Positions 4,947 through 62,855 of a stretch of 64,000 nt of DNA are shown here, piece after piece. This stretch comes from an uncultured Alphaproteobacteria bacterium (GTDB lineage: Bacteria; Pseudomonadota; Alphaproteobacteria; Rs-D84): assembly GCA_944392565.1 (NCBI GenBank), contig CALXWX010000004.1:1-64000 (forward strand), read 5' to 3'. Within the stretch, counting starts at the first letter, position 1. The number at the start of each line of letters is the position of its first letter. The translations under genes and the position numbers were made by a program. Under the pieces are notes generated by a model that saw nothing but the letters and a program-made list of their open reading frames with translations, was not told the DNA's origin and did not search any database.

Positions 4947-5021
4947 ATGCTAAAATATATAAAGCCCTTGATAACGTTATTCTCTGGACTTATGCGCTTT
5001 TCTTATCAATGTTGTGTGTAA
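4947..5021 (+). CDS. 24-residue micro-ORF between TerS and integrase
   Basis: ATG with a good GAAGGAG site a few bases upstream, coding MLKYIKPLITLFSGLMRF and a short Cys-containing tail. It starts 2 bp after the terminase gene and ends 14 bp before the preferred integrase start. The peptide is hydrophobic and basic at its N-terminus. It may be a leader peptide coupling integrase translation, or simply chance. No family is recognised. Confidence 0.35.
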   Translation: MLKYIKPLITLFSGLMRFSYQCCV

Positions 5022-5035
5022 ATAAAGGGATAAAT

Positions 5036-6247
5036 ATGCGAACGCTTAAATGTCAAAAGTTGGCTTTAACAACAGGATTTCTCAACAAATTGAAATCAGA
5101 CATTGATTTGCAAATAACAGATGCAGCATTGCCGGGTTTGCAATGCCGATATTCGGCTGCAACGGGGCGCAAAGTATTCTATTTGGGATATCGTGTTCGC
5201 GGTTCATATCAACAAAAGCATATAAGATTAGGATCGTTGGCGGAATTTAGCTTGAATGAAATTCGTACTCGGGCGATAAAGACAAAGCAAGATATCGCCA
5301 ACGGGTTGGACCCACAATCAGAACAGCGCATACGCATAAGGCAAAATGAAATGGCCGCAGCACGACGTAAACGAGTCCGTGAATTAACCGCAATATTTAT
5401 GGAAAAACACTGTCGTGAAAATAATCGGGCGAACACTTATCGATCAAACGAAGCGTTGATGCGTCTGTATATAAATCCATATCTTGGTGATAAACACATT
5501 GCAGATATTGATTTGGGTATAATCCAGGACATGTACGATAAAATCAAAAACACGAAAACCATTGCGATTGGTTTACATGTTATGCGATTGTTATCGACTT
5601 TTCTAAATTGGTGCGAAAAATACAATTATCGCACAATAAATTCAAATCCATGTCACTTAGTTCAAAAAGCTAAATCTCCAAAGATGAACCACACAATTCT
5701 GGATGTTGATGGATACAAACGGTTGTTTAGTGCATTGGATGAAGCGCTTTGTGTTGGGAGATATGCACCACAAACTGTCTTGGCAATAAAAACTCTTGCG
5801 CTGACGGGGTGTCGCAGCAGTGAAATAACAAACCTAGAACTGAATGAGTTAGATCTGAAAAACGGGTATCTGCGTTTAAACAAACGCAAAACAAATGCAT
5901 TTAATGTACCCCTAGGCGATCCAGCAATAGAAGTTATAAATCAAGCTTTGAGAATTTGCAAAAGTAACCGATATGTGTTTCATTCTCCAATTGACCATAC
6001 GCGTCCATTGACAGATTTGCGTAAAGCATTTTGGTGGGCATTAGATCGTGCGGGATTACCGCGGATGCGAATACATGACCTGCGTCATTCCTTTGCAACA
6101 CTGGCAACCAGCATGGGCGAAGATATACGAATATTAAAAGATGTACTGGGACACACAAAAATCACCACAACAGAAATATATACGCATGCGTCAAGTGTTG
6201 CCGCGCGTCGCACCGCAAATAATGTTGCAAGCAAGATAACGGGATAA
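5036..6247 (+). CDS. int: Tyrosine integrase (P4-type)
   Basis: 403-residue site-specific recombinase. The N-terminal 90 or so residues form a DUF4102-type arm-binding domain (FYLGYRVRGSYQQKHIRLG), followed by a SAM-like core-binding domain and the catalytic domain. Catalytic residues visible are Arg260 (TGCRSSEI), His347 and Arg350 (HDLRH), a GH pair in the DVLGHTK segment, and the nucleophile Tyr382 (TTEIYTH). The ATG at 5036 has AAAGGGAT before it; an earlier ATG at 5009 overlaps the micro-ORF and lacks a site. The gene ends 116 bp from a tRNA-Arg and about 400 bp from the proposed attachment point, as expected for tRNA-targeting integrases. Confidence 0.95.
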   Translation: MRTLKCQKLALTTGFLNKLKSDIDLQITDAALPGLQCRYSAATGRKVFYLGYRVRGSYQQKHIRLGSLAEFSLNEIRTRAIKTKQDIANGLDPQSEQRIRIRQNEMAAARRKRVRELTAIFMEKHCRENNRANTYRSNEALMRLYINPYLGDKHIADIDLGIIQDMYDKIKNTKTIAIGLHVMRLLSTFLNWCEKYNYRTINSNPCHLVQKAKSPKMNHTILDVDGYKRLFSALDEALCVGRYAPQTVLAIKTLALTGCRSSEITNLELNELDLKNGYLRLNKRKTNAFNVPLGDPAIEVINQALRICKSNRYVFHSPIDHTRPLTDLRKAFWWALDRAGLPRMRIHDLRHSFATLATSMGEDIRILKDVLGHTKITTTEIYTHASSVAARRTANNVASKITG

Positions 6248-6363: not shown

Positions 6364-6440
6364 TGGCGTGCCCAGCAGGATTCGAACCTGCAACCTATTG
6401 CTTAGAAGGCAATTGCTCTATCCGGTTGAGCCATGGGCAC
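6364..6440 (-). tRNA. tRNA-Arg(UCU), intact, element-borne
   Basis: 77-nt cloverleaf read on the minus strand: acceptor GTGCCCA/TGGGCAC, D-arm GCTC/GAGC, anticodon stem ATTGC/GCAAT with loop CTTCTAA (anticodon TCT), T-arm GCAGG/CCTGC with TTCGAAT, discriminator G and encoded CCA. It decodes AGA and possibly AGG. It lies between the integrase and the remnant of another tRNA-Arg with the same anticodon, so it probably arrived with the element and replaces the broken host copy. Confidence 0.93.
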
Positions 6441-57880: not shown

Positions 57881-59353
57881 TTAAAACTTTGCATTTATTC
57901 CAACGCGTATTCCCAATGCTTTATAGAAAGAATTTACCTCGCCACCCGTTGAACAAACCCAACCCGGACACTGTTCTTCCAATGCCTTGATATTTATTGC
58001 GGTCGGACTGCCTGTTTCTGGATCCAGCATTGCGGTTTCATTTCCCTGCCATGGGGCGCCTTCTTGATTCAATATCGCATTATACATATCTGTATAGTAC
58101 GCTTCATTCAAGTATGTTTTTGCATCAGCATCACTGACGGTATAGTAATCATATGTCAATCCGATTGATAATGCAACTGCATCTGTTATAGCAGTTGTCC
58201 AATTTGCCCCCAATCCAAAATGGAATGCGCTGAACATACCGGCTTCGTCTTCAACACTTTTTGGATGCGCCCAATCAAAACGATATGGCTGATCCCCTTC
58301 GGATGTATATCCTGGGAATCCTAATTCTATATGACCGTTTACTGCATTATTTTGATTAATTATATAATCCATATCTAATGCAATATATGGTCCCGCCCAC
58401 GTGGTTTCATACGAATGACTGACCCCCGGTTGCTGATAATAATAAGTTCCCGCCGTATCAACACTGGTCGCGCCATCTGGAACCTTTACCGGCACCTTTA
58501 TATCATCACGCCAAATAATCGCCTGCTTTCCATTATCAAAGTTAAATATTAATGCCGGATCACATTGAATTTCGCCATCAATTTCGAAACACGCATGTGT
58601 ATCAACCGCCAAACCATAGTTCTTTTCGGTTTCCAGCTTATATTTCAAATAACGATATCCAACAGATGGTGTTATTGAAACATTTCCGACTTTGAACACG
58701 TCTGTCAACCCAAACCCAACATTAAATTCCATCATGTTGCCGCCCTGGCTGGTACCAATTGACATCGCATGCCCAATTTGATCAAAAGTACCGCTATCCG
58801 CCTGTTGATCATCATTAACATCACCTGTCCACGATGTAACCAGATACCCACCATTTGTAATATCGTCATCATACATGGCATTTTCACCCCACTGCATACC
58901 GTACTTAAACCCGGCATCGACCTGTAAAGTAGTACTGCCAACATCAAATGCATAACCCGCACTGATATCCAAAACATTCCACGCAATATTATCATAGCTT
59001 AAAATACTGCCTGATTGATTCATGCTAAATTGCCACTGCGCCATTTCGTGGGTTATTCCCGCATCCAACCAAAATCCAGATTTTTTTGACGATTGCGATT
59101 GCGCTGAACTGGTCGCGGTACGCTGTGTTGCATTATTTGTACTGTTTTGTGTTGCCGCAGTATTATATGTATTATACCGCGTACTGGCATATGATGGTGT
59201 CGTATAGCTGCGATTATACCCCGTTTGGCGCTGGGCATATGTTTGTGTTGAATACCGTGTCTGTGGCGATTGATATGCGCCCGTATAATATGTTCCCGCC
59301 GCATGTGCCGCAAATGGTAAAAACGCTAATATAACCCATGATGCTTTTCTCAT
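57881..59353 (-). CDS. Outer-membrane barrel protein with Q/N/T-rich N-terminal region
   Basis: 490 residues. Signal MRKASWVILAFLPFAAHAAG, then about 70 residues of Tyr/Thr/Ser/Gln/Asn low complexity (YTGAYQSPQTRYSTQTYAQR), then a barrel-like chain of alternating strands ending GIRVGINAKF, with a Cys-containing loop (EEQCPGWVCSTGG). The start at 59353 follows TAGGGGATAAA; the open frame upstream runs through the tRNA repeat region and is not coding. First gene of the envelope run. Confidence 0.8.
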   Translation of the reverse strand: MRKASWVILAFLPFAAHAAGTYYTGAYQSPQTRYSTQTYAQRQTGYNRSYTTPSYASTRYNTYNTAATQNSTNNATQRTATSSAQSQSSKKSGFWLDAGITHEMAQWQFSMNQSGSILSYDNIAWNVLDISAGYAFDVGSTTLQVDAGFKYGMQWGENAMYDDDITNGGYLVTSWTGDVNDDQQADSGTFDQIGHAMSIGTSQGGNMMEFNVGFGLTDVFKVGNVSITPSVGYRYLKYKLETEKNYGLAVDTHACFEIDGEIQCDPALIFNFDNGKQAIIWRDDIKVPVKVPDGATSVDTAGTYYYQQPGVSHSYETTWAGPYIALDMDYIINQNNAVNGHIELGFPGYTSEGDQPYRFDWAHPKSVEDEAGMFSAFHFGLGANWTTAITDAVALSIGLTYDYYTVSDADAKTYLNEAYYTDMYNAILNQEGAPWQGNETAMLDPETGSPTAINIKALEEQCPGWVCSTGGEVNSFYKALGIRVGINAKF

Positions 59354-59404: not shown

Positions 59405-59432
59405 TTGAAAAAAAAACTGCTTCTTGTAAAAT
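59405..59432 (+). promoter_or_regulatory. Candidate promoter of the tRNA-Leu transcript
   Basis: TTGAAA (59405-59410), 16-bp spacer, TAAAAT (59427-59432). The start at about 59439 would fall just before the two 67-nt repeats. Confidence 0.45.
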
Positions 59433-59442
59433 TTTGCATATT

Positions 59443-59576
59443 GCGGGCATGGCGGCGACGGACGACAGCGAAGTGCCGCCGGGACGCAGAATACAGTGTT
59501 GTAGATATTGCGGGCATGGCGACTACGCAGCGCAGCGAAGTGCCGCCGGGACGCAGAATACAGTGTTGTAGATATC
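59443..59576 (+). repeat. Two tandem 67-nt repeats ending at the tRNA-Leu 5' end
   Basis: Units 59443-59509 and 59510-59576 are exactly 67 nt each and agree at 60 of 67 positions by direct count. Each begins GCGGGCATGGCG, which is also the first 12 nt of the mature tRNA-Leu that starts at 59577. Each ends with the same 40 or so nt leader (GAAGTGCCGCC through GTTGTAGATAT). The array looks like an expansion of the tRNA's 5' edge plus leader. Confidence 0.9.
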
Positions 59577-59661
59577 GCGGGCATGGCGAAACGGCAGACG
59601 CACAGCACTAAGGATGCTGTGGATAAAATCCATGGGGGTTCGAATCCCCCTGCCCGCACCA
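59577..59661 (+). tRNA. tRNA-Leu(AAG)
   Basis: 85 nt. Acceptor GCGGGCA/TGCCCGC fully paired, D-stem GCG/CGC, anticodon stem CAGCA/TGCTG around loop CTAAGGA (anticodon AAG with T33), long variable arm GGAT/ATCC, T-arm GGGGG/CCCCC with TTCGAAT, discriminator A, encoded CCA. The anticodon is unusual for bacteria, which normally use GAG; an A at position 34 would need TadA to become inosine for wider reading. Confidence 0.9.
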
Positions 59662-59732: not shown

Positions 59733-62700
59733 ATGAAAGGAATCAGATTATTTTTAACTGCATGCTTTGCATTCATTGGGATTCAATGTGCATATGCTGA
59801 TGACGATGACACCGCACGCGCGGCGACGCGGCGCAGCGCGACAACAACGGTCGTATCCAATCGTGGTCAATCTGGCGCCACATCTGTATCATCGCGAACA
59901 AATGCAACATCTGGGATATCACGTGCGACAACCCGCCAACCAAATAACGACACATCACAAAATGTACGCGAACGCACCACAACGGCGCGAACTGGCGTTG
60001 TCATTCGCGACAGTGGCGCGCGTACCGCCACAGAAAATTCATCACAAACGGTATCTGCGCGCACAACATCAACTGTTATGCCACGCGCGGCGGTTAATAA
60101 ATCCAATGTAATATCTGTTCCATCTGTATCCAGTGCGCGTACTGCAACTACAAATGCCACCCGTACGGGCATCCGCACCGGTGCCACCACCACATCAAAC
60201 CCGCGTGGCAATGGCGCGACATCAACGATATCGCGTGTGGCAACTGCGACACGCAACATATCTGCCCCAAAAACATCATCTACCGCACGCAGTGCCACAT
60301 CCGGCGCCCGTGTATCGCGTGCGGCAATAACTGCCGAAGAAATAATGAACCGTGATTACACCACATGCCGTGATGTATTTTACGATTGCATGGATGAATT
60401 TTGCGCCAACAAAGACAGTCAATTAAAACGCTGTGCATGTTCTGCACGCGTAAATGAATTTGATGATGTCAAGGCACAACTGGCAGAAGTAGAAGATAAA
60501 TTACTGGATTTCAGTCAACGATTACTGACCGTTAATATGGACAAAGAAGATGCCGCCGCAATATATCAAGAAACCGAAGGCGAAATCGCATTTAATCAAG
60601 ACGATACATCTGATTCAAAAAAATTACTGGATGAAATCGCCAACAAATTAAATACAACATTTGATACCAGCAGTTTTGATGCCAACCTGGCACCTATTTC
60701 ATTATCATTGGACACAGATGCGGCATTTGACAGTCTGGATTCATTATCTGGCACATCAACAACGGCAAAATCTGGCACAGATTTATACAACGCCGCATTA
60801 CCCGTATGCCGTGAAATGGCGATGGAGGTATGCACCGCAAACGATTTATCCATCGCAGAAAGCGGATATCAAATGCTGATTGAACAAGACTGCAATACTG
60901 TTGCCAAGGCATATCAAACCCAACAAAACCAGGCACGCGAACAAATATTGGAAAGCAGCGCACTGCTGGACATGTCGCGTCTGGACGATTACCAGACCCG
61001 CAATTCTGATGATATTTTAACATGCAAACGCAAAATGCTGGATATGTTAAGCAGCACATCCGTATGCGGTGAAAACCTGGGGAAATGCTTAGACATCAGT
61101 GGTCAATATATTGATCCATCAACCGGTGAAGCAATATTAACATCCAACCTGGTCAACCTGGGCAATTTAATTACACGTCCATCCGACAATCAAACATGGA
61201 CCAGCGCACCCGGCAACGAAAAATTTGTTTCATATTTAAATTCTAAAAAGATGTTCCTGGAATCAGCAACCGAAAATTGCGAAGATATCGCCGACACCGT
61301 ATGGGATCAATTTATTGATGATGCATTGGCGCAAATAAAACTGGCACAAGAAGCCAAACTGGAAGAAGTCCGCCAGTCTTGCACCACATTAACCGCACAA
61401 TGTTTATCTGATGCCGCCGAATCACTGGAAGATTTTGATGCGCGCGCACTGTCTATATTTGGTGTGGCGGCGGATAAAACCGTAAAACAAATGTGTGCCG
61501 AAGTCCAGGCGTCATGTACCGCATTATTGGATACAGTTGATGGGGGAACCGACTGGTCATCTGGTATGACAGAAATTGCGAACGACAAAACATATGAAAC
61601 AATTTTACAAACCTGTCGCGAAGTTGGACGCAATTGCATAATACAATCATGTAAATCAATATCTGGTAATTTTGGTCTGTGTGAAAACATCCAAACATCT
61701 GTTAACAGAAAATCTATCATCAACCGTACAGCTTGCTGGGATGAAGTATATAATTGTGTTGCCAGTGCCGGCACCGATGCAATTGACCAAATAACCGCAC
61801 AATTGGTTGCAAACAGTATCATTGATGATAACGGAACATTTTATAACAATGTATATGGCATTACCCCAAATGATGAATATGTAACCACCGGACCCACCCA
61901 GGACGAAATTGCAACAATATGTATTACTGCGGATGAAACGAATTCAAAAAATTGTATATATGATATATGCCATAATGAATGCAACGGTCAAGAAAATTCA
62001 TCCCAATGTCAGATATGCCGTATCGCTGAACGTATATGGGGTAATTGTGAAACCCATCCAACCGTAAATTTAACAGAAGAAAATTCACATAATAAAATAA
62101 AAATGCCCAGTAAAAACGCTGACGATACTTTATTGTCATGGTTTGCAAAAAATACAAACACCCAAGACGCTGTTGACAGCTGCCGTGATACATCATGCGG
62201 TCCTGGATATGTTCCACGAATACTTAACAATAATACAACCATATGCGTATCCGAAGAAAGCATGAGTTATGAAAATTGGATTTGTCCGGTACCCCCATTT
62301 GAACGAACCGAACCCATTAACCCAGACGACCCCAACAGCACAAATTGCTGTGCCGCAGTAGAAGGCGATGAAGACACAATCGGGTTCCTTGAAACAAACG
62401 GTTTATGCTGCATTAATGGGTCAAAAGAAACAATCACCGGATTAGATTGGGGTACCAATACACCATATTTTAGTAAAGATAAAACATCAATGCCAACAAA
62501 TGGTTTATGTATGCCAAACAGCAAAAATATAACATTTGTTGCCGCATATCCAGATGGAGATACTTTTACATATATATTATGCATCGGCGGCGATGTTACT
62601 AATGGTGATGAAACAGCAAGAGCTGGATTTCCAAACGGGCAAACCGTCAAATGCAGCGGCAATTATGTATTGGTATCAAGATCAGGAAAATATTCGACAC

Positions 62701-62855
62701 CAAAATATGATGCCACTAACCCTAATGCATATCCAACAAACTTTTACAGAACTGCAAATGGTGATGAATGCGAACAAAATCCTGACGGCACATGGCCCAA
62801 TACACCCCAATGTAATATAACAGATCCCGCAACATGGATTATCAATTGGGAATAA
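59733..62855 (+). CDS. Large secreted Cys-module protein (paralogue of 8702)
   Basis: 1040 residues. The signal peptide MKGIRLFLTACFAFIGIQCAYA is followed by about 180 residues of Ala/Thr/Arg/Ser/Val low complexity, then the Cys module CRDVFYDCMDEFC with RCACSA, as in the 8702 protein. About 600 residues of helical, Cys-containing chain follow (ACWDEVYNCVAS, NCIIQSCKSISG), ending in CGPGY-type Cys-rich segments shared with 33532. Roughly 40 cysteines imply an oxidising compartment. Not recognised as a described family. No clear ribosome site before the ATG. Stands alone between tRNA-Leu and pth. Confidence 0.8.
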   Translation: MKGIRLFLTACFAFIGIQCAYADDDDTARAATRRSATTTVVSNRGQSGATSVSSRTNATSGISRATTRQPNNDTSQNVRERTTTARTGVVIRDSGARTATENSSQTVSARTTSTVMPRAAVNKSNVISVPSVSSARTATTNATRTGIRTGATTTSNPRGNGATSTISRVATATRNISAPKTSSTARSATSGARVSRAAITAEEIMNRDYTTCRDVFYDCMDEFCANKDSQLKRCACSARVNEFDDVKAQLAEVEDKLLDFSQRLLTVNMDKEDAAAIYQETEGEIAFNQDDTSDSKKLLDEIANKLNTTFDTSSFDANLAPISLSLDTDAAFDSLDSLSGTSTTAKSGTDLYNAALPVCREMAMEVCTANDLSIAESGYQMLIEQDCNTVAKAYQTQQNQAREQILESSALLDMSRLDDYQTRNSDDILTCKRKMLDMLSSTSVCGENLGKCLDISGQYIDPSTGEAILTSNLVNLGNLITRPSDNQTWTSAPGNEKFVSYLNSKKMFLESATENCEDIADTVWDQFIDDALAQIKLAQEAKLEEVRQSCTTLTAQCLSDAAESLEDFDARALSIFGVAADKTVKQMCAEVQASCTALLDTVDGGTDWSSGMTEIANDKTYETILQTCREVGRNCIIQSCKSISGNFGLCENIQTSVNRKSIINRTACWDEVYNCVASAGTDAIDQITAQLVANSIIDDNGTFYNNVYGITPNDEYVTTGPTQDEIATICITADETNSKNCIYDICHNECNGQENSSQCQICRIAERIWGNCETHPTVNLTEENSHNKIKMPSKNADDTLLSWFAKNTNTQDAVDSCRDTSCGPGYVPRILNNNTTICVSEESMSYENWICPVPPFERTEPINPDDPNSTNCCAAVEGDEDTIGFLETNGLCCINGSKETITGLDWGTNTPYFSKDKTSMPTNGLCMPNSKNITFVAAYPDGDTFTYILCIGGDVTNGDETARAGFPNGQTVKCSGNYVLVSRSGKYSTPKYDATNPNAYPTNFYRTANGDECEQNPDGTWPNTPQCNITDPATWIINWE

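Follow-up and report, generated by a model that had tools for sequence, protein, structure and literature searches.

A tRNA-Leu(AAG) gene in place of tRNA-Leu(GAG) in an order of Alphaproteobacteria, with an anticodon loop resembling that of tRNA-Arg(ACG)

A stretch of 64,000 nucleotides from an uncultured alphaproteobacterium (contig CALXWX010000004.1 of assembly GCA_944392565.1; hereafter, the window) was initially annotated as carrying a tRNA-Leu gene with the anticodon AAG, in departure from the usual GAG. How did such a gene come to stand in this genome, and how would a tRNA with A34 read the leucine codons CUU and CUC? The usual bacterial A34 tRNA is tRNA-Arg(ICG), made with TadA (PMC3711424; PMC11066159), and a GtRNAdb-based account assigns “almost all” tRNA-Leu(AAG) genes of bacteria to Bacilli (PMC13249217), which bears out the rarity that had been claimed for an A34 tRNA-Leu in bacteria. 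Our literature search found no paper on tRNA-Leu(AAG/IAG) in Alphaproteobacteria; such a tRNA is already known in Lactobacillales, and it is the alphaproteobacterial setting that is unusual.

The gene, the leucine tRNA set and its distribution

The gene itself is confirmed by three approaches. ARAGORN calls exactly the interval and strand given in Table 1, Rfam model RF00005 scores 54.8 bits (gathering score, 29), and the pairs of the cloverleaf covary. Among 14 AAG orthologues, a standard pair is found in 322 of 322 cells and both sides have changed in 13 of 23 pairs; on four of five covariation measures none of 500 shuffles matches the alignment, and on the remaining one (further pair types) it is matched by 418. 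The fold z-score of the single strand is -3.1, with no equally low value in 200 shuffles, although in the minimum-energy drawing the D-arm and some of the anticodon loop are put in the wrong place. Judging from its body and anticodon, the tRNA would be charged with leucine.

Table 1. Features of the window around the tRNA-Leu(AAG) gene, and tadA
Feature	Coordinates	Strand	Remarks
tadA, tRNA adenosine(34) deaminase family, 151 aa	20899..21354	-	HAE/PCxxC motif, NF008113, 2b3j
Upstream neighbour of tRNA-Leu(AAG), beta-barrel-like protein (AAGTYYTGAYQSP)	57881..59353	-	label guessed from sequence; locus marker
Candidate sigma-70 promoter, TTGAAA-16-TAAAAT	59405..59432	+	upstream of the tRNA leader
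Leader repeat 1	59438..59504	+	copy of the first 12 nt of the tRNA, then hairpin
Leader repeat 2	59505..59571	+	91% identical to repeat 1
tRNA-Leu, anticodon AAG, CCA encoded	59577..59661	+	ARAGORN, Rfam RF00005, pair covariation
Anticodon arm, CAGCA-CTAAGGA-TGCTG	59603..59619	+	A31-U39, C32-A38, G37; anticodon AAG at 59610-59612
1040-aa protein, downstream neighbour of tRNA-Leu(AAG)	59733..62855	+	locus marker; function not assigned

The genome containing the window comprises 939 kb in 7 contigs and is 99% complete. Listing its leucine tRNAs, as the initial annotation had proposed, gives UAA, CAA, UAG, CAG and AAG; no tRNA-Leu(GAG) is present among all 41 over-threshold tRNAs typed genome-wide, which include one tRNA-Arg(ACG). 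AAG has replaced GAG in this genome. That a GAG gene was missed in a gap of the seven-contig assembly is unlikely, since the searches across the order show a pattern of mutual exclusion between the two anticodons. Of the 201 genomes of the order, pattern searches recovered tRNA-Leu(AAG) in 151 and GAG in 27 (after removal of G023, a false match with no tRNA there), with neither assigned in the remaining 23. The AAG genomes were found with a first pattern (99 genomes), a relaxed pattern applied to 36 genomes (13) and the arm itself applied to 61 genomes (39); as the third pattern presupposes the arm, its 39 genomes are unusable as proof of arm conservation. No genome with both anticodons was found among the 201, the GAG genomes having been checked for AAG with the first pattern and seven of them also in a further search. 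ARAGORN confirmed all 72 of the pattern-based AAG loci that were fetched and 8 of 8 more. Within the genus of the window, 141 of 156 genomes have AAG, 4 have GAG and 11 are without assignment.

tRNA-Leu(AAG) is a lineage trait of this order. Outside of it AAG is rare: two further AAG genomes were found among 385 sampled Alphaproteobacteria (G516 and G525), and a sample of 398 Pseudomonadota gave AAG only in two genomes, both from the genus of the window, and in a single additional row that is not tRNA-like. The same anticodon arm is carried by the firmicute Anaerorhabdus furcosa; AAG was found in 5 of 198 sampled genomes of its class and 46 of 392 of its phylum, the two samples overlapping. 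The same-arm records, as seen for 80 of 112 stretches, are gut and rumen Alphaproteobacteria MAGs, including Candidatus Enterousia excrementavium, and a few are titled Rickettsiales or Rickettsiaceae.

The nearest known case is the tRNA-Leu(IAG) of Lactobacillales, described for Streptococcus, Lactobacillaceae and Oenococcus (PMC13249217; PMC11472039). Both systems have in common that AAG replaces GAG with mutual exclusion of the two, that UAG is retained and TadA present, and that the loop resembles that of tRNA-Arg(ACG). In contrast, the present case lies in another phylum, Pseudomonadota, and is known from genes rather than RNA.

The anticodon arm, TadA and the reading of CUU and CUC

The difference between the two gene types extends beyond the anticodon. 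All 72 AAG loci read have the loop CTAAGGA and an A-U pair at 31-39, whereas all 27 GAG loci have the loop TTGAGGT, with G-C, C-G or U-G at 31-39 and never A31. A plain G34-to-A34 point change is rejected, because positions 31, 32, 38 and 39 differ too: the switch changed pair 31-39 to A-U and pair 32-38 to C-A, resulting in ACTAAGGAT. The genome's own tRNA-Arg(ACG) has A31-U39 and the loop CTACGGA (ACTACGGAT with the 31-39 pair), so that the nine central bases of the two tRNAs differ at base 35 only (A instead of C) and A31-U39, C32-A38, U33, A34, G36 and G37 are common to both. Apart from base 35, the leucine tRNA is distinguished from tRNA-Arg(ICG) by its class II body with a variable arm and by its presumable charging with leucine. 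In S. pyogenes, by comparison, the loop differs from that of tRNA-Arg(ACG) at both 35 and 37 (PMC11472039).

Of the 112 AAG genomes found with the first two patterns, 111 have C32; the exception, G194, combines U32 with A38 and A31-U39 and is a possible intermediate. The UAG and CAG tRNAs keep U32 and U38 (in 16 genomes, and in the genome of the window too). Farther away, C32/A38 and A31-U39 accompany A34 in G516, which belongs to another alphaproteobacterial family, and in A. furcosa and 41 further small genomes of its phylum; in G516 and in that phylum this core arose with a different stem. U32 is kept with AAG in G525, G741, G929, G1002 and G1020.

A tadA gene had been pointed out in the same window, and it is indeed there, being the sole match of the genome at E <= 1e-5. 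The protein matches NF008113 with E=3.5e-31 and 108 bits, below the curated cut-off of 150, and the S. aureus TadA 2b3j with E=6.2e-26; it retains the HAE, PCxxC and DxK motifs, the lysine of the last probably being Lys106 of the S. aureus paper. However, its proximity, at about 38 kb, carries little weight, since TadA is also present in 21 of the 24 GAG genomes tested in the order, compared with 16 of 18 AAG genomes, the two without it being 78% and 82% complete. No alignment column separates the TadA of AAG genomes from that of GAG genomes (264 columns; best residue p 0.0024; 14 versus 16 rows, one of which is G023, mislabelled as GAG), and a change in TadA marking the AAG genomes was thus not found in this test.

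Taken together, we consider it probable that tRNA-Leu(GAG) was replaced by a change of anticodon in place and that the product is converted to IAG by TadA. The AAG gene would have arisen by a change of the anticodon arm within the resident GAG gene, and a working tRNA-Leu(AAG) would take over CUU and CUC from tRNA-Leu(GAG). The new loop would copy the surroundings that TadA recognises in tRNA-Arg(ACG), for which reason TadA most likely deaminates A34; the mature tRNA, IAG, would then read CUU, CUC and possibly CUA. The tRNA probably needs this conversion to inosine in order to function well. The loop requirement described for TadA (C32, U33, A34, G36, a purine at 37 and A38; PMC11066159, PMC11472039) is matched at each position by the tRNA-Leu(AAG) of the window. 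Pair C32-A38 contacts Lys106 and Asn123 of the S. aureus enzyme (PMC3711424), and in AAG and AUG tRNAs each alteration of 32, 37 and/or 38 that was tried blocked E. coli TadA (PMC11066159). In addition, tRNA-Leu(AAG) is a substrate of S. pneumoniae TadA in vitro (PMC13249217), and in S. pyogenes, where its loop departs from that of tRNA-Arg(ACG) at 35 and 37 alone, it is fully I34 (PMC11472039). The S. pyogenes tRNA is edited efficiently by the TadA of its own species but not by that of E. coli (PMC11472039), so that editing may require more than the loop; what determines the specificity of bacterial TadA is, by one account, not yet definitively mapped (PMC11066159).

The C32-A38 and A31-U39 pairs could accompany A34 on grounds unrelated to TadA, for instance a tuning of codon reading on the ribosome through pair 32-38, and would then carry no information on editing. 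The genome's own tRNA-Leu UAA and CAA, which are not TadA substrates, also have C32 and A38, and the CTAAGGA loop exists without any TadA match at E <= 1e-5 in nine of nine small genomes tested from the phylum of A. furcosa (G909, G1012, G847, G732, G753, G634, G846, G972 and G803), although an edited state may have come first in those genomes, as proposed for arginine in Mollicutes (PMC3711424). Since the mutation tests link positions 32 and 38 directly to TadA (PMC11066159), we regard this explanation as rather unlikely. By their size, the nine small genomes are suggestive of Mollicutes, which have lost TadA (PMC3711424), and decoding of the leucine box by unmodified A34 is possible in them; three genomes of the same phylum with AAG but U32 do have a TadA match.

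Codon usage bears on a second alternative, in which A34 stays unmodified in the order as well. Such a tRNA would mainly read CUU, while CUC would be poorly read and shunned, and the U34 of tRNA-Leu(UAG) would cover part of the box. The window has 27 CUU and 4 CUC among 1342 leucine codons (2.3% together), and in its genus the share of the two codons, summed from pooled counts, is 4.7% in AAG and 4.0% in GAG genomes. A rise in CUU/CUC as a correlate of AAG was looked for and not found in the counts for window, genus and family, whereas a gain is reported for Lactobacillales. Instead, CUC is relatively lower: ten AAG genomes of the genus have 221 CUU and 16 CUC, against 50 CUU and 19 CUC in four GAG genomes of 17-38 kb or less each (Fisher p 1e-5), which does not agree with the prediction for a tRNA fully bearing inosine. 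However, a GTC/GTT control shifts in the same direction (odds ratio 0.50, versus 0.19 for CUC/CUU), three GAG genomes of genus g13 are equally low in CUC, and the family-wide CUC difference is not significant (p 0.075, G023 counted as GAG). With CUC scarce in AAG genomes, and with no such shortage of CGC relative to CGU, the codons of ICG, codon usage tilts slightly in favour of CUC being read poorly. Unmodified A34 is documented for arginine in mycoplasmas, and the TadA-less A34 tRNAs of Mollicutes likewise serve a four-codon box, in genomes that are reduced (PMC3711424); the nine TadA-less genomes point the same way. The AAG genomes of the order differ from them in having TadA, and their loop is nearer to that of tRNA-Arg(ACG) than the edited loop of S. 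pyogenes is (PMC11472039). We therefore judge unmodified A34 to be quite unlikely here, and retain deamination by TadA as the preferred reading. The altered decoding of the CUN box predicted by the initial annotation is plausible under that reading, but its effect would be modest, with UAG and CAG kept, little use of the two codons and similar shares in AAG and GAG genomes.

One locus with either anticodon

Both neighbours of the gene in the window flank the tRNA in 61 of 67 AAG loci (the 72 read, less 5 without enough flanking sequence), and, on the GAG side, in all 4 loci from the window's genus and in 10 of 27 overall. In genus g10 and family f5 the bodies of AAG and GAG tRNAs are nearly identical, the differences concerning mainly the anticodon arm and parts of the acceptor and variable arm. 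Since both anticodons occupy the same locus in the window's genus, the gene appears to have been switched in place; a switch at one orthologous locus inside one genus also sets this case apart from the Lactobacillales. In a TadA tree of 27 rows, a single clade of AAG genomes is rejected (p-AU 2e-7), and the AAG genomes G188 and G189 nest within GAG genomes of g10 on supported (starred) branches. This tree rests on one short gene and left out G023 as well as the long-branched G006 and G184; within those bounds, a single AAG origin with vertical descent is rejected. Switching from GAG to AAG in place, more than once, would be the simplest account. Alternatively, AAG loci may have spread by exchange of the tRNA locus between strains, or TadA may have been transferred. 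Horizontal transfer from A. furcosa is disfavoured: its tRNA has the same 17-nt arm but not the same body, so that convergence is favoured for the likeness.

More tentatively, with chances that we put a little short of even, repeated switching may represent a repeatable route by which TadA is extended to a new tRNA. The arm would be rewritten at 31, 32, 34, 38 and 39 to match tRNA-Arg(ICG) save for base 35, TadA need not change, and the switch would have occurred more than once at the orthologous tRNA-Leu locus, in a hardly used box and with no gain in codon usage. The same extension of I34 past tRNA-Arg was made by eukaryotes for eight tRNAs. If the account is true, editing spread here without the codon-usage gain proposed for Lactobacillales. 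A switch driven by codon usage is called into question, CUU and CUC being hardly used. Sister genomes with GAG or AAG at one locus, and the same neighbouring bases changing each time, amount to a natural experiment on what TadA needs.

Leader repeats and other observations near tRNA genes

Upstream of the tRNA, the window has a leader of two 67-nt tandem repeats, each consisting of nt 1-12 of its own tRNA followed by a hairpin. Comparable units, one to four in number and about 49-69 nt long, were seen in the window and at L055, L112, L117, L122, L159, L174, L188, L221 and L268, and each such unit upstream of tRNA-Leu(AAG) opens with nt 1-12 of that genome's own tRNA. Of 138 distinct AAG loci, 17 have exact upstream copies of the own 12-nt head, as does 1 of 27 GAG loci, while heads of other genomes were found upstream in none of 779 tries. 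As the repeats track each genome's acceptor stem, they are, on this sequence pattern, probably re-made or homogenised locally. A search with a profile of the hairpin gave 62 matches in 37 of 374 sequences (window included), 53 of them upstream of AAG and 2 upstream of UAG, the latter at one place in the window's own genome; the remaining 7, at three loci, lack a tRNA in the table, and their coordinates put them upstream of AAG. In the own genome (L047, contig 3, 1480-1562), a like unit upstream of tRNA-Leu(UAG) matches the AAG leader at 91% identity across 74 nt.

A candidate sigma-70 promoter precedes the leader; one was found against a shuffle mean of 1.3, which is not significant alone, and by eye the genes of relatives, AAG and GAG alike, are preceded by a similar TTGAAA...TA box. 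Placed between this candidate and the tRNA, the repeats are perhaps part of a transcribed leader. The repeats have an untidy look, but it is extremely improbable that the gene is decayed, silent or misassembled, and the pseudogene reading is rejected, in view of the 322 of 322 intact pair cells and 13 of 23 doubly changed pairs, the ARAGORN confirmation of 72 of 72 AAG loci from independent assemblies, and the fact that tRNA-Leu(AAG) is the only A34 or G34 reader of CUU/CUC found in the genome.

A few further observations concern other tRNA genes. Among the 41 tRNAs typed, tRNA-Trp, tRNA-Gln(UUG) and tRNA-Arg(CCU) are absent, with assembly gaps as the likely cause. At L014, in the own genome, a truncated and altered tRNA-Ala copy with the same 5' flank lies about 89 nt upstream of an intact tRNA-Ala(TGC). 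At L106 and L198/L367, the intact gene is preceded by a 5' fragment of tRNA-Leu that a second insert type (AATCCGAGTATATGAG...) splits after nt 12, and at L198 what reads as a nearly whole tRNA-Leu on the opposite strand bears such an insert as well. Finally, an ORF at 5009-6247 (+) that resembles tyrosine integrases, a family guessed from its sequence, ends next to tRNA-Arg(TCT) at 6364-6440, and with resolvase-like and reverse-transcriptase-like ORFs nearby, the region looks like an integrated element.
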